Shown here: one piece after another, positions 9,472 through 14,939 of the stretch
Layout: the number at the start of each line of letters is the position of its first letter
How positions within the stretch are numbered: position 1 is the stretch's first letter
Source: Opitutia bacterium
Lineage (GTDB): Bacteria > Verrucomicrobiota > Verrucomicrobiia > Opitutales > Opitutaceae
DNA: 36,369 nucleotides
NCBI GenBank assembly: GCA_016190985.1
Contig: JACPPI010000030.1
Span: forward strand, 1 to 36,369
Reading direction: 5' to 3'
Translations under genes and position numbers: made by a program
The notes under the pieces: generated by a model
What the model saw: the letters and a program-made list of their open reading frames with translations, nothing else
What the model was told of the DNA's origin: nothing
Database searches by the model: none

Positions 9472-10191
9472 GTGAACATCATCCTATTTCGCCCGGCCGA
9501 AATCACTCAGCCCCTGCCCCGGCAGGATCCGCGCGCCCGGCACATCCTCGCGGTGCTCCGCCGCCAGCCGGGCGACAGCTTCGACGCCGGTTTGCTCGAT
9601 GGCCCGCGCGGCAAAGGCACGCTGGTTTCAGTCACTCCCGAACATCTCACCCTGGCCTTTGCCTGGGGCGAACCGCCGCCGCCGCTCCGCCCCCTGATCC
9701 TGGTGATCGGCCTGCCCCGGCCGCAGACCGCCCGCGACATCCTGCGCGAGGCCACCACGCTCGGAGTCGCCGCCATGCATTTTGTCCGCACCGACCGCGG
9801 TGAAGCGGGCTATGCGGAAAGCACCCTCTGGCGTTCCGGCGAGTGGCAGGATTGCCTCATCACCGGCGCCGCCCAGGCCAACTGCACGCGCTTGCCCGAA
9901 GTCACGCACGGCCGCGCCCTGCGCGCCGCGCTCGCATCCCTGCCCGCCGGCGCCGCGCGGCTCGCGCTCGACAACTACGAAGCGAAGGCCGCGCTCGCCA
10001 CTTGTAACCTGATAGATGACAAGTCCGCGGTGCTCGCCCTCGGCGCGGAGCGGGGCTGGTCGGCGGCGGAGCGGGAGCTGTTGCGCGGAAGCGGCTTCAC
10101 CCTCGTCCATCTGGGCGAGCGTGTGCTGCGCACCGAGACGGCGTGCCTCTGCGCCCTCACGCTGCTCCAGGCCCGGCTCGGCTGGATCTGA
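9472..10191 (+). CDS. rsmE: 16S rRNA (uracil(1498)-N3)-methyltransferase
   Basis: The 239-residue product matches RsmE of the SPOUT superfamily. It has an N-terminal PUA-like region (HILAVLRRQPGDSFDAG) and a C-terminal knot domain with LILVIGLPRPQTARDILREATTLGV, LALGAERGWSAAEREL and LGERVLRTETA, the SAM-binding knot. The usual GPEGG element is GAERG here, still with the conserved Glu. RsmE methylates N3 of U1498 in 16S rRNA. The start is GTG 9472, chosen because MNIILFRPAE immediately precedes the first conserved strand. The 3' end overlaps convergent rsmD by 35 bp; two 16S methyltransferases thus share a tail-to-tail overlap. Confidence 0.9.
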   Translation: MNIILFRPAEITQPLPRQDPRARHILAVLRRQPGDSFDAGLLDGPRGKGTLVSVTPEHLTLAFAWGEPPPPLRPLILVIGLPRPQTARDILREATTLGVAAMHFVRTDRGEAGYAESTLWRSGEWQDCLITGAAQANCTRLPEVTHGRALRAALASLPAGAARLALDNYEAKAALATCNLIDDKSAVLALGAERGWSAAERELLRGSGFTLVHLGERVLRTETACLCALTLLQARLGWI

Positions 10192-10735
10192 AGATCGCCA
10201 CGGTCGGCTGACGCGTGCCTTTGCCGAGCCGCTTCACGCAGGTCCAGCCCGCCGGCGTCAGCTCCAGCTCGCCGGGCATCTCAAAGACGATCAACGCATC
10301 TGGTTTCGCCACCAGCCAGCCGGTCAGGCGCGCAAAGAGTTTCGGCGCCAGTCCGGAAATCTGGCCATACGGCGGATCAATGAACACCAAGTCCGGCGCG
10401 GCGCCCGGCAACACCGTGGTGGCGTCCGCCGTCACGACCTGCAGGCCGGCGGTGTCGCGCTGGAGGCTTTTGCACACGGCGGCGATGTTTTGCCGGATGA
10501 AACCCGCCGTGCGCGCGTCCTTTTCCACAAAAATCCCCCCGGTGGCGCCGCGACTGAGCGCCTCGAGCCCGTAGGCCCCGCTGCCCGCGAACAGGTCCAG
10601 AAACCGCGCGCCGGGCACGTGCGCCGCCAGGCTGGAGAACACGGCCTGCCGCATGGCGTCGGTCGCCGGGCGGACCGCGTCGCCCTTGGGCAAGACCAGC
10701 GGGATGCCGCGCGCCTGGCCGCCGGTTATGCGCAT
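10157..10735 (-). CDS. rsmD: 16S rRNA (guanine(966)-N2)-methyltransferase
   Basis: The 192-residue product matches RsmD. It begins MRITGGQARGIPL, the typical N-terminus, then RPATDAMRQAVFSSL, the SAM-binding motif FLDLFAGSGAYGLEALSRG (about residues 45-63), and the catalytic DPPY at 120-123. It methylates the exocyclic amine of G966 in 16S rRNA during 30S assembly. It is convergent with rsmE and overlaps its end. The Ala/Gly-rich C-terminal tail lies within the overlap and may be dispensable. Confidence 0.93.
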   Translation of the reverse strand: MRITGGQARGIPLVLPKGDAVRPATDAMRQAVFSSLAAHVPGARFLDLFAGSGAYGLEALSRGATGGIFVEKDARTAGFIRQNIAAVCKSLQRDTAGLQVVTADATTVLPGAAPDLVFIDPPYGQISGLAPKLFARLTGWLVAKPDALIVFEMPGELELTPAGWTCVKRLGKGTRQPTVAIFRSSRAGPGAA

Positions 10736-10938: not shown

Positions 10939-12399
10939 ATGTTTTCCCGGCTCCCGGTCCGGCCGCTCCTCGCGGCCCTCTTTGCCGCCGCGGCCCTCCA
11001 CGGCGCGGAGCAAAACGGCTGGCCGTTGGTCGTGCGCCAACCGGCCGAGGGCGGCGCCCCCGGGTCGGTCCAATGCCTCGGGCCGTTGCTGTTTTCCCGT
11101 CAGGACCGCGACCTCGTGCAGGGTTTCCGGCCGTTCTGGCTGCGCGCCGTCGCAGGGGACAAGGAAACCTCCACCCTCCTCTACCCGCTCTTCACGTGGC
11201 AGCTTGAGGCCGGCGATTCGCATTTCAGTCTCTCCCAGCTCGTGAACGGCCGCCGCACCGGCGTCACGGGGGGCGGTGCCGGCACGCGCGGCTTCGACGC
11301 CTGGCCGTTTTATTTTTCCCGGGAAACGGGAGACCCCGCGACCTCCTATCGCGCCCTGTTTCCTGTCGCCGGCACCATCAGGCACCGCTTCGGCCGGCAG
11401 GAGCTGTCGTGGTATGCCTTCCCGTTTTATCTGCACAGCACGAAGGCCGGCCGCGAGATCACGACCGCGCCGTGGCCCTTCCTGCGCTTCATCGGCGGCG
11501 AGGGGCATAAAGGCTTCGAGTTCTGGCCGCTCTTCGGCCGCCGCGGCCGCGAAAACGACTACGCCGAGCAGTTCTGCCTGTGGCCGCTCTTCTACAAATC
11601 CATCCACGGGCTCTCCGAAGCCACACCCACCGTGAAACTCGGCGCCCTGCCCTTCTACACCCGTGAGACCGCGCCGGGCAGCATCAGCGAGACCTATGTC
11701 TGGCCGTTCTTCGGCTACACCCACCGCACCGCGCCGCATCGTTACGACGAGCAACGCTACCTCTGGCCCTTCCTCGTCCAGGGGCACGGCGACCAGCGCC
11801 ACATCAATCGCTGGGCTCCGGTTTATACCCACTCCGTCATCAAGGGTTACGACAAGACCTGGCTGTTCTGGCCGCTTTTCCGCCACGCAGCCTGGCAGGA
11901 CGCCGGCCTCGCCCAGGAAAAGAACCAACTGCTCTATTTTCTGTATTGGTCCCAAAGCCAGCGCAGCCTGACCCATCCCGGCGCGGCCCCGGCGCACAAG
12001 ACCCACCTCTGGCCGCTTTTCAGCGCCTGGGACAACGGCGCCGGCCACCGCCAAGTGCAGGCGTTCAGCCCGCTGGAGGTTTTTTTCCAGAACAACGAGG
12101 CCGTGCGCCAGCTCTACACGCCGCTCTTCGCGCTCTACCGTTACGACCGGACGGACGCCGCGACCTCCCGCCATTCCTTGCTGTGGGACGCCGTCACCTG
12201 GCGCCGCACCGCCGCGGAAAAGGAATTCCACCTCGGCCCGCTCTTCAGCGTGGAAACCGGCGCGGAGCGGCAGCGCGTCACCCTCGGCAACGGCCTGCTC
12301 GGCCTGAAGCGCCGGCCCGGCGAGCGCGCCTGGCGGCTCTTCCTGTTCGATTTCTCCCGGAAAACAACTACCAAGACAGCCGGGGCTCCGCCGCCATGA
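10939..12399 (+). CDS. Exported WPLF-repeat protein at the head of the mla operon
   Basis: The 486-residue product starts with a signal peptide (MFSRLPVRPLLAALFAAAALHGA, cleavage near residue 22). The mature part is built of about 15 short units each ending in an aromatic-Pro-hydrophobic-aromatic core: YPLF, WPFY, FPFY, WPFL, WPLF (several), LPFY, WPFF and TPLF, spaced roughly 15-40 residues apart with polar segments between. Regular aromatic/aliphatic strands in an exported protein suggest a beta-rich outer-membrane or periplasmic fold; no named domain is recognised. Its stop overlaps the mlaE start by 4 bp (ATGA), so it is translationally coupled to the Mla transporter and may act as its outer-membrane partner, as MlaA or PqiC do elsewhere. 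That role is inference. An alternative ATG at 10915 would add eight residues before the signal peptide. Confidence 0.72.
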   Translation: MFSRLPVRPLLAALFAAAALHGAEQNGWPLVVRQPAEGGAPGSVQCLGPLLFSRQDRDLVQGFRPFWLRAVAGDKETSTLLYPLFTWQLEAGDSHFSLSQLVNGRRTGVTGGGAGTRGFDAWPFYFSRETGDPATSYRALFPVAGTIRHRFGRQELSWYAFPFYLHSTKAGREITTAPWPFLRFIGGEGHKGFEFWPLFGRRGRENDYAEQFCLWPLFYKSIHGLSEATPTVKLGALPFYTRETAPGSISETYVWPFFGYTHRTAPHRYDEQRYLWPFLVQGHGDQRHINRWAPVYTHSVIKGYDKTWLFWPLFRHAAWQDAGLAQEKNQLLYFLYWSQSQRSLTHPGAAPAHKTHLWPLFSAWDNGAGHRQVQAFSPLEVFFQNNEAVRQLYTPLFALYRYDRTDAATSRHSLLWDAVTWRRTAAEKEFHLGPLFSVETGAERQRVTLGNGLLGLKRRPGERAWRLFLFDFSRKTTTKTAGAPPP

Positions 12400-13154
12400 A
12401 TCACCTGACCGCCATCTTCAGCCACATCGGGGGCACCGTGCTCCTGTTCGCGCGCGCGGTGACGCACATCCGCACCCTGCCCCGGCAGTTCCCGCGCTTC
12501 ATCGAGCAGTGCTACCTCATCGGCTACACCTCGCTGCCCATCGTCACCATCCTGAGCTTTTTCATCGGCAGCGTGCTCGCGCTGCAAAGCGGCTACAGCA
12601 TGGAGAACTTCGGGGCCAAGCAGTTCATCGGCACGCTCGTCGGCCTCACCATGGCGCGCGAACTCGGCCCGGTCATGGTGGCCATCCTGCTCGTCGGCCG
12701 CGTCGGCTCCGCCGTCACCGCCGAGCTGGCCTCGATGAAGGTCTACCAGGAGGTCGACGCCCTCGTGACCATGAACATCCCGCCCGAGCGCATGCTCGTG
12801 CTGCCCCGCCTCGCCGCCGTGCTGGTGATGATGCCCGTGCTCGCCATCATCGCCAACCTCTGCGGCTGGTATGGCGGCGCCCTCATCTGCCAATACACCC
12901 ACTCCATCTCCGTCGACTCCGAGGCCTACTTCACCGCGCTCAAGACCTACATGAAGCCGCGCGACATCACCGACGGCCTGATCAAGGCCGAGGTCTTCGG
13001 CTTCGTGATCATGCTGGTCTGCTGCTATATCGGGCTCAACACCCGCGGCGGCCCGCGCGAGATCGGCGCCTCCGTCACCAAGGCCGTGGTCACCTCGCTC
13101 ATCCTCATCCTGGTGCTCGACTACTTCGTCACCAAGGCCCTCCTCTACTCATGA
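12396..13154 (+). CDS. mlaE: MlaE-family ABC transporter permease
   Basis: The 252-residue product is an MlaE/YrbE permease. It has an N-terminal amphipathic stretch, the conserved region LPIVTILSFFIGSVLALQSGY, the family core TMARELGPVMVAILLVGRVGSAVTAELASMK, and further membrane helices near residues 145-165, 195-215 and 225-250. It forms the membrane channel of an MCE phospholipid transporter of the Mla type, moving lipid between inner and outer membranes. It overlaps the upstream WPLF gene by 4 bp and mlaF downstream by 4 bp (ATGA at both junctions). The open frame extends upstream, but the ATG at 12396 matches the family length. Confidence 0.95.
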   Translation: MNHLTAIFSHIGGTVLLFARAVTHIRTLPRQFPRFIEQCYLIGYTSLPIVTILSFFIGSVLALQSGYSMENFGAKQFIGTLVGLTMARELGPVMVAILLVGRVGSAVTAELASMKVYQEVDALVTMNIPPERMLVLPRLAAVLVMMPVLAIIANLCGWYGGALICQYTHSISVDSEAYFTALKTYMKPRDITDGLIKAEVFGFVIMLVCCYIGLNTRGGPREIGASVTKAVVTSLILILVLDYFVTKALLYS

Positions 13155-13954
13155 GCGCCCCCTACACCGCCGCGCCGTTTGTGGGCAAGACCTTCGGCGT
13201 CACCGTCGCGCGCCTGCACAAGCGGTTCGGGACCACCCCCGTGCTGAAGGACATCAGCCTCGAGGTGAAACCCGGCGAGATCTTCTGCATCATGGGGCCC
13301 AGCGGCTCCGGCAAGAGCGTCCTTCTCAAGCACATCGCCGGACTGGAAATCCCGACCAGCGGCGAGGTCCGCATCGGCGAGTTCGACGCCGCCGATCCTG
13401 CGACCCGCGACCAGATCCGCCTCGCCCTCGTGTTCCAGGCCGGCGCACTCTTCAACTCCCTGTCCGTCTACGACAACCTCGCGCTCTACCCGCGCGAGCA
13501 TCGGCTCTGCGGTGAGGCCGGCATCCGCGACCGCGTCATGCACGCCCTCGCCATCCTGTCCCTCGAGAAGGCCGCCCACAAATTTCCTTCCGACCTCTCC
13601 GGCGGCATGAAAAAGCGGGTGGCCATCGCGCGCGCCCTCGTCATGGAGCCCCAGCTGCTCCTCTACGACGAGCCCACCTCCGAACTCGACCCCGTCATGT
13701 CGGCCACGCTCACCGAGATCATCGCCACCCTGCGCGAGCAGACCGCCGTCACCAGCCTCGTCGTCACCCACGACCGCGACCTGGCCTTCGCCATCGCCGA
13801 CCGGGTTGCCTTTGTGATGGAGGGACGCATCCGCGGCGTCGGCCGGCCCGATGAGTTCAAGAAACCCGCCGACCCCGTCATCGCGAATTTTCTCAACCCG
13901 GTCATCGACCTCAAGAATCCCCGCTTCAAACAACTGGAGAACAACCATGAATAA
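13151..13954 (+). CDS. mlaF: Mla-type ABC transporter ATP-binding protein
   Basis: The 267-residue product is the ATPase of the MCE transporter. It shows Walker A GPSGSGKS (residues 49-56), the ABC signature LSGGMKKRVAIARAL, Walker B LLLYDEPTSELDP and the switch His in VVTHD. The MKKR variation after the signature is typical of the MlaF/MceG group. It energises lipid transfer through MlaE. The start ATG overlaps the mlaE stop, and the gene ends overlapping the mlaD start by 8 bp. The C-terminal extension (FLNPVIDLKNPRF) after the ATPase fold may contact a partner; mlaB is not visible in the window. Confidence 0.95.
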   Translation: MSAPYTAAPFVGKTFGVTVARLHKRFGTTPVLKDISLEVKPGEIFCIMGPSGSGKSVLLKHIAGLEIPTSGEVRIGEFDAADPATRDQIRLALVFQAGALFNSLSVYDNLALYPREHRLCGEAGIRDRVMHALAILSLEKAAHKFPSDLSGGMKKRVAIARALVMEPQLLLYDEPTSELDPVMSATLTEIIATLREQTAVTSLVVTHDRDLAFAIADRVAFVMEGRIRGVGRPDEFKKPADPVIANFLNPVIDLKNPRFKQLENNHE

Positions 13955-14939
13955 CACATCCCAAACCGTCCGCGTCGGCCTGTTTTTCCTCCTCGGCCTG
14001 GCGCTCGCCTGGATCACGTTCGAGTCGCTCAACGGCGGCCGGCTCTTCAAGAAGGAGGGCTACACCCTCGTGGCCGGCTTCGCCAACCTCAAGGGCCTCA
14101 AGACCGGCGACGAGGTGCGCATGGCCGGCGTCAAGGTCGGCGCCGTCGACCTCACCCGCCTCGCCGGCAGCCGCGTCGAGGCCGTGATCGCCATCGAGCC
14201 CGGCGTGAAGATCCCGGCCGACGCCGTCGCCAGCGTCGAGCAGTCCAGCCTGCTCGGCAGCAATTACCTCGGCATCACCTTCGGCACCCCCGGCGGCCCG
14301 CTGCTGAAAGACAAGGACGAGATCAGGACCAAGGCCACGGTGGACATGAGCGAGGTCATCAGCCAGCTCGGCAACCTCGGCTCCAAGCTCGAACAGGTCG
14401 TCGGCGAGATCGGCAAATCCCTCGGCGCCGGCGGCGAGAGCGGCGGCATCTTCCAGCGCCTCGACAGGCTCGTCGCCGACAACGGCCCCAAGCTCACCGA
14501 GACCATCAGCAACCTCCAGGACATCACCACCAAGATCAAAGGCGGCGAGGGCACCTTCGGCAAACTGGTCAACGACCCGAAGCTGCACGACGACCTGCTC
14601 GCCTCCGTCACCGAGATCAAGGCCGCCGCGGCCGACGCGCGCACCTTCATGAGCGACGCCAAGGGCATCGTCACCGACGTGAAGGGCGGCAAGGGCACGC
14701 TCGGCCTGCTCCTCTACGACGAGCCCACCGCCAGCAGCCTCAAGGCCTCGCTGACCAACCTGCGCGAGGTCTCCGCCAAGCTCAACAGCGGCCAGGGCAC
14801 GCTCGGCAAGCTCATCTCCGACGACAGCCTCTACCTCGGCGTGCAATCCACGATGAAGAAGGCCGACCGCGCCCTCGAGGGCCTCGACGACTCCGGCCCG
14901 ATCACCGCCGTCGGCGTCCTGGCCGGGAGGCTGTTTTGA
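13947..14939 (+). CDS. mlaD: MCE-domain lipid-binding protein of the Mla transporter
   Basis: The 330-residue product has one N-terminal membrane anchor (about residues 8-27, VGLFFLLGLALAWITFESL) and an MCE domain (about 35-115; FANLKGLKTGDEVRMAGVKVG, LLGSNYLGITFG). A long helical region follows with three copies of a G-x-GT-x-G-x-L motif (GGEGTFGKLVND, GGKGTLGLLLYD, SGQGTLGKLISD). MCE proteins form hexameric rings that bind phospholipid in the periplasm; the extended helical part could form a needle or tunnel, as in longer MCE proteins. It is well above the roughly 180 residues of E. coli MlaD. It overlaps mlaF by 8 bp and ends the operon core. Confidence 0.93.
   Translation: MNNTSQTVRVGLFFLLGLALAWITFESLNGGRLFKKEGYTLVAGFANLKGLKTGDEVRMAGVKVGAVDLTRLAGSRVEAVIAIEPGVKIPADAVASVEQSSLLGSNYLGITFGTPGGPLLKDKDEIRTKATVDMSEVISQLGNLGSKLEQVVGEIGKSLGAGGESGGIFQRLDRLVADNGPKLTETISNLQDITTKIKGGEGTFGKLVNDPKLHDDLLASVTEIKAAAADARTFMSDAKGIVTDVKGGKGTLGLLLYDEPTASSLKASLTNLREVSAKLNSGQGTLGKLISDDSLYLGVQSTMKKADRALEGLDDSGPITAVGVLAGRLF

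Follow-up and report, generated by a model that had tools for sequence, protein, structure and literature searches.

In Escherichia coli, the Mla system (MlaFEDB together with MlaC and MlaA-OmpC/F) has the permease MlaE, the ATPase MlaF and the MCE protein MlaD encoded in one operon. A minimal MlaEFD system with a transenvelope MlaD has been described for Veillonella parvula, in which MlaD itself bears the barrel as its C-terminal domain (PMC10665443). The authors report that the PVC group lacks MlaD with a barrel, and ask if the lipoprotein parts that are missing from several outer-membrane systems, Mla included, have been replaced by non-homologous proteins. In the Pqi system the MCE protein PqiB has a separate outer-membrane lipoprotein, PqiC, as its counterpart (PMC10897342).

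Here we analyzed a window from an Opitutaceae genome (Verrucomicrobiota, contig JACPPI010000030.1), by which we mean the whole stretch of 36,369 nucleotides. As in E. coli, the genes for MlaE, MlaF and MlaD are located in one operon; the differences are that MlaA is missing, that the operon has no MlaC, that MlaD is long and not short, and that an unrelated, putatively exported repeat protein, in the following called the WPLF protein, is encoded first. With the system of Veillonella the locus shares the absence of MlaA and MlaC from the operon, a long MlaD and a proposed beta-structured part at the outer membrane, but there the barrel is carried by MlaD, whereas in the window the beta-protein is a separate gene and no domain other than MCE was recognised in MlaD. 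As in Pqi, the MCE protein would have its outer-membrane partner encoded separately, but the WPLF protein is a long repeat protein and matches no Pfam or NCBIfam model. Integral outer-membrane beta-barrels such as porins, LptD and FadL resemble the WPLF protein in the putative signal peptide, the antiparallel meander, the 19 to 20 residues per strand and, in some members, an aromatic-rich last strand; they differ in that no sequence relative was found among them for the WPLF protein, which has proline in the center of most strands and shows a coevolution signal that does not support closure. A further difference from Pqi is that PqiA is not known to be an ABC permease.

Based on operon linkage, on the exclusion between the WPLF protein and MlaA and on the length of MlaD, we assign a probability of about 0.6 to the reading in which the WPLF protein forms the outer-membrane terminus of an MCE lipid transporter that works without MlaA and MlaC. 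No description of a WPLF-like partner was recognised among the papers listed by our full-text searches, in a collection to which most subscription papers and preprints do not belong.

The WPLF gene and its operon

The gene of the WPLF protein (10939..12399, plus strand) is open throughout its reading frame and codes for 486 amino acids, with a start methionine that is kept by close relatives. Reading the sequence and its relatives by eye, we assign residues 1-23 (10939..11007) to a signal peptide with probable cleavage after LHGA. It is followed by 24 periodic units (11011..12360) with a mean spacing of 19.1 residues, 20 of which are proline-centered. The unit positions were picked by hand from the alignment; the first-pass annotation had counted about 15 WPLF-like repeats, a number that our recount replaces by 24 units of about 19 residues.

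The stop codon TGA of the WPLF gene (12397-12399) overlaps the ATG of mlaE (12396-12398) in the form ATGA. The mlaE gene (12396..13154, plus strand) encodes a permease of 252 amino acids (PF02405, E 6e-75) and is joined by a further ATGA overlap (13151-13154) to mlaF (13151..13954, plus strand), which encodes an ATPase of 267 amino acids (PF00005, E 1e-32). The mlaD gene (13947..14939, plus strand) begins 8 bases inside mlaF, and its product of 330 amino acids contains the MCE domain at residues 38-113 (PF02470, E 2e-17). The overlaps and the gene order mlaE-mlaF-mlaD bear out the initial description of an overlapping four-gene operon in which the WPLF gene shares 4 bp with mlaE. MlaD comprises an N-terminal membrane helix, recognised by eye, the MCE domain and a C-terminal extension of about 215 residues, and the Pfam search yielded no domain besides MCE. 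Upstream of the WPLF gene and divergent to it lies a gene (10157..10735, minus strand, PF03602) that we read as rsmD-like; it is a context marker at many WPLF loci and at three MlaA-type operons. Scans for promoters and terminators did not yield useful results.

At E values up to 1, the WPLF protein matched no family of Pfam or NCBIfam and no model of PADLOC or PHROGs. PDB searches with the protein and with its profile returned nothing relevant, the two rows obtained (E 0.04 and 0.66) being unrelated proteins, and a comparison of ten diverged relatives with Pfam and NCBIfam produced only five matches below the cut-off (E 0.08-0.3), none of them to PqiC. The protein was previously unnamed and unannotated, and its sequence relatives are absent from all five of these collections. 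The scanned viral contigs contained no relatives and the plasmid search gave no match. A second weak match in the genome of the window (L002, E 0.0013) falls within a frame whose product we read as a CreD-like membrane protein, and we attributed it to chance.

Distribution and neighborhood of WPLF genes

The WPLF protein is conserved in 170 of the 252 genomes of the window's family, and because of this conservation it is not a chance observation. A protein search detected it in 85 of 120 family genomes. A profile search across the phylum recovered it from 159 of 387 genomes, of which 123 belong to other classes and are spread over many families; a few of these phylum-wide matches are weak (E about 1e-6). 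The contig scan revealed one named relative, Candidatus Synoicihabitans palmerolidicus (Opitutaceae, Verrucomicrobiota). In this relative (L003:5718-7815) frameshifts split both the WPLF gene and mlaE, and mlaF and mlaD look more intact, which reflects either decay or sequencing error.

The neighborhood was annotated at 169 near loci, which belong to the family, order and class of the window and include the window itself, and at 57 distant loci, one place each from 57 of the 123 WPLF genomes of other classes. The distant loci are not a random sample, since they were chosen by the best E-values and then with one or a few per family. Two loci (L165 and L188) were excluded from all counts. At 167 of the 169 near loci and 48 of the 57 distant loci, the WPLF gene is followed on its own strand by mlaE at a distance of no more than 600 bases. 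The first-pass annotation had expected WPLF proteins to precede mlaE where mlaA is absent, and had named a location mostly away from mla genes as the outcome that would speak against it; the survey agrees with the expectation, as mlaE adjoins most WPLF loci and as the WPLF protein and MlaA almost exclude each other within the family.

One of the two near exceptions has mlaE at a distance of 1.5 kb (L159). In the other (L145:2221-4530, genome G010) a WPLF protein without its last units and MlaE share a single frame of 769 amino acids, which may reflect a true fusion, a deletion or an erroneous sequence. Three of the distant loci stop at contig edges (L090, L179 and L194); they are counted in the 57 and excluded from the 54 that could be assessed. 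In six of these 54 (L091, L100, L168, L174, L177 and L202) the stretch read contains no mlaE. The WPLF-type proteins at these six loci are possibly paralogs with another role. One of them comprises 1107 amino acids and is located beside frames that read, by eye, as sugar ABC permeases. The genome of L091 (G297) has a second WPLF place outside the sample.

MlaA, MlaC and further MCE genes

The genome of the window is 99.5% complete and gave no match to MlaA (PF04333), and the E. coli control was matched. A single MlaC-domain gene (PF05494, E about 5e-12) is present on contig C21 (G000:C21:54651-55343, minus strand, equivalent to L041:4649-5344), between genes that we read as priA-like and mpl-like; the open reading frames read around it include no mla gene. 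No relative of this gene was detected in the other WPLF genomes among the 120, one weak match (E 8e-4) being in an MlaA genome, and it was rejected as a conserved partner. The initial annotation had noted that no mlaA, mlaB or mlaC is visible. An mlaA/mlaC set elsewhere in the genome, which had been considered as an argument against the proposed role, is not what we found: MlaA is missing and the sole MlaC-domain gene is an orphan.

Contig C11 of the same genome carries a second MCE system, with an MlaD of 334 amino acids and an MlaE whose N-terminal extension shows a weak match to STAS_2 below the cut-off (E 0.02). At least two MlaE matches were obtained in 79 of the 85 WPLF genomes of the family, so that the task could fall to a second MCE system.

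The search for MlaA and MlaC covered 120 of the 252 family genomes. MlaE was detected in 118 of them, MlaA in 33 and MlaC, over the cut-off, also in 33. The WPLF protein without MlaA occurs in 82 genomes and MlaA without the WPLF protein in 30, while three have both and five neither (Fisher p 9e-20, uncorrected for kinship). MlaC tracks MlaA, as the 33 MlaC-positive genomes are 32 MlaA genomes and the genome of the window. Since the WPLF protein is found in this family mostly where MlaA and MlaC are missing, it may be their replacement. Among the three that combine the two proteins, G024 contains a complete mlaEFDCA operon; the 10 kb read in G064 include MlaA but no mlaE, and G072 has MlaA and MlaC as a divergent pair with no mlaE in the stretch read. 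For the five genomes with neither protein, the one MlaE that was read falls into the second, STAS-type group.

The exclusivity is weaker in the phylum than in the family: of 387 genomes, 140 have the WPLF protein only, 133 MlaA only, 19 both and 95 neither (p 1e-21, uncorrected for kinship). MlaE is present in 331 of 357 phylum genomes, and the genomes with neither protein therefore often still carry it, for example many of family f10. In the families f22, f27, f38 and f40 the MlaA matches are mostly located in frames of about 600-880 amino acids, suggesting that MlaA is fused there to another large domain.

Apart from the genomes with both proteins, two genera (g4 and g33) hold both kinds. 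In genus g4 the swap is clean, with the WPLF protein in G003 and mlaEFDCA in G052, and a divergent rsmD is located beside both operons, 1.2 kb away in G052. The swap in genus g33 (WPLF protein in G032, MlaA in G070) is weak, because G070 is only 75% complete, shows no MlaE match and has its MlaA genes on short contigs without mlaE.

The two operon types differ in the length of MlaD. All eight completely read MlaA operons have the order mlaE-mlaF-mlaD-mlaC-mlaA and an MlaD of 152-183 amino acids, whereas MlaD at 99 WPLF loci has a median length of 331 and a minimum of 256 amino acids, a few of these lengths being inflated by frames extended at the start. The rsmD gene is found beside three of the eight MlaA operons. 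The layout of one of them (L052), with rsmD divergent upstream at the distance of 1.2 kb, is like that of the WPLF operon of its congener L104; in the other two (L049 and L056) rsmD comes after mlaA on the same strand.

Trees of MlaE were calculated with 83 and with 41 of the 152 extracted rows; they contain long branches and have no defined root. Full support (100) was obtained for the MlaA-linked MlaE as one group and for the STAS-type MlaE as another. In the free trees the WPLF-linked MlaE proteins fall into two groups, which correspond to the near and the distant classes. A single clade for all WPLF-linked MlaE was not rejected (AU p 0.54) in the 41-row test, from which the long-branch rows L081, L158 and L193 had been left out.

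Coevolution of the repeat units

Each unit of the WPLF protein consists of a hydrophobic core of about 9 residues flanked by polar stretches. The periodicity is visible in the autocorrelation of column hydrophobicity, which reaches 0.18-0.20 at lags 18-21 (shuffle sd about 0.05). An AlphaFold2 prediction from two sequences, the mature protein and one relative (one open frame of L003), had a pLDDT of 31 and was discarded. For lack of a usable model we turned to mean-field coevolution, calculated from 167 near sequences (effective number 143).

Between adjacent units the signal lies on one antiparallel line, with a combined score of 12.6 at sum -1 and the prolines nearly opposite to each other; parallel lines also rise, up to 8.4 at zero shift. 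For units two, three and four apart no antiparallel line exceeds 3.7, 3.7 and 2.1, respectively. When the unit spacings were shuffled, the maximum averaged 5.7 (95th percentile 7.5, largest of 300 shuffles 10.2), and a second control centered on the loop midpoints gave up to 6.5. At equal sequence separation, pairs on the line average 0.51 compared to 0.13 for pairs off the line. All 23 adjacent unit pairs are positive (1.7-6.3), compared to -0.04 (sd 1.15) for pairs with a unit distance above three. These values indicate that neighboring units form an antiparallel up-and-down meander.

A parallel solenoid was rejected, as the antiparallel peak of 12.6 is higher than the parallel one of 8.4 and as the center points of the parallel zero-shift signal coincide with those of the antiparallel line. 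A propeller is disfavored, as the adjacent pairs show no regular drop with period 4. Pairing of the first with the last strand gave a score of -1.0 for units 1-24; units 1-22 reach 4.5 as a band, yet no single antiparallel line stands out. Of the new beta-rich fold suggested initially, the beta-rich part is supported by coevolution and the closure of a barrel is not. A meander of this length presumably fits an outer-membrane barrel best, and the WPLF protein is probably a beta-barrel. The core of the unit is hydrophobic on both faces and has proline in the center of the strand, features which are unusual for membrane strands.

Export signals and termini

Apart from a few possible exceptions such as L108, the near members have the appearance of ordinary signal-peptide proteins. 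By a crude rule of our own, a hydrophobic stretch after K/R is present in 154 of 167 near and in 54 of 57 distant sequences. Automatic lipobox matches in 23 of the 167 near sequences were not counted, as most of them looked like cysteines inside the hydrophobic core. Nine automatic matches were obtained in the distant set, with L082 and L186 discounted by eye; a lipobox that is convincing by eye occurs in eight distant members (L083, L086, L091, L092, L168, L192, L195 and L197). An aromatic-rich last strand directly at the C-terminus is found in L087, L090, L100, L156 and L158, and most near members have a tail beyond the last strand. In L150-L153 (genus g3) the C-terminus is longer and ends in a shared basic motif, PYPKVRxRR or similar.

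Possible role at the outer membrane

Operon linkage, the near exclusion with MlaA and MlaC in the family, the long MlaD and the antiparallel pairing of neighboring units are computed results. They are best explained by a WPLF protein that acts as an outer-membrane partner, probably as a beta-barrel, and that jointly with the long MlaD takes the place of MlaC and MlaA. Of the first-pass idea of a missing outer-membrane partner, the partnership is the best-supported reading, on grounds of linkage, exclusion and MlaD length; the location in the outer membrane we infer.

In this arrangement MlaE and MlaF would form the ABC transporter of the inner membrane. The long MlaD would be a hexameric MCE ring with a helical extension that, by analogy to MCE proteins in general, could span the periplasm, and its far end would dock on the WPLF protein, the export of which is predicted from the signal peptide read by eye. 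The WPLF protein itself would be an all-beta antiparallel meander, most likely integrated into the outer membrane as a barrel, and phospholipid as the presumed cargo would enter or leave this membrane through or beside it. In its most specific form, which we put forward tentatively, the model predicts a barrel of about 22-24 strands with a hydrophobic, phospholipid-conducting lumen, docked on a periplasm-spanning MlaD tube; this dedicated barrel from the same operon, widespread in Verrucomicrobiota, would have replaced or preceded MlaC and MlaA.

Clearly less probable than the main reading is a beta-sheet docking protein, associated with the outer membrane or periplasmic and not integrated as a barrel, which caps or tethers the MlaD tube like PqiC does with PqiB, with the lipid passing at the membrane surface. 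The eight distant members with a convincing lipobox by eye are as expected of a lipoprotein, the unit cores with two hydrophobic faces and the lack of a closure pair point in the same direction, and PqiC provides a precedent (PMC10897342). On the other hand, the near members look like ordinary signal-peptide proteins with few possible exceptions, the adjacent pairs do not have the period-4 gap that a propeller would give, and about 24 mutually pairing strands are, from general knowledge of folds, hard to accommodate in a compact soluble protein.

We regard it as improbable that the WPLF protein acts in envelope biology beside the transporter and off the lipid path, for example by helping in assembly or as an enzyme-like protein expressed together with mlaEFD. 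The six distant loci without mlaE nearby and the 19 of 387 phylum genomes that combine the WPLF protein with MlaA would be in line with such a role, but the linkage to mlaE extends across many families of the phylum and the exclusion with MlaA and MlaC in the family is almost complete. Very improbable is a complementarity that mostly mirrors shared descent, with two ancient operon types in different clades and no functional replacement of MlaA and MlaC: the labels are clustered on the MlaE tree, the Fisher p is uncorrected for kinship and a clean swap is seen in one genus only, but this swap adjoins rsmD in both species and MlaD is short in every MlaA operon read and long at WPLF loci.

As an outer-membrane partner, the WPLF protein would be a widespread candidate for the non-homologous replacement about which the authors of PMC10665443 ask. 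Genus g4 offers a natural experiment, with the WPLF protein and a long MlaD in one species and MlaC, MlaA and a short MlaD in the other, and the WPLF protein makes the question of bridge versus shuttle in MCE lipid transport directly testable.

The short MlaD proteins with MlaC and MlaA (L048, L049, L052, L055, L056, L057, L058 and L060) are themselves an observation on this verrucomicrobial family. PMC10665443 describes the short MlaD as almost restricted to Proteobacteria, and the operons concerned were possibly gained by transfer.
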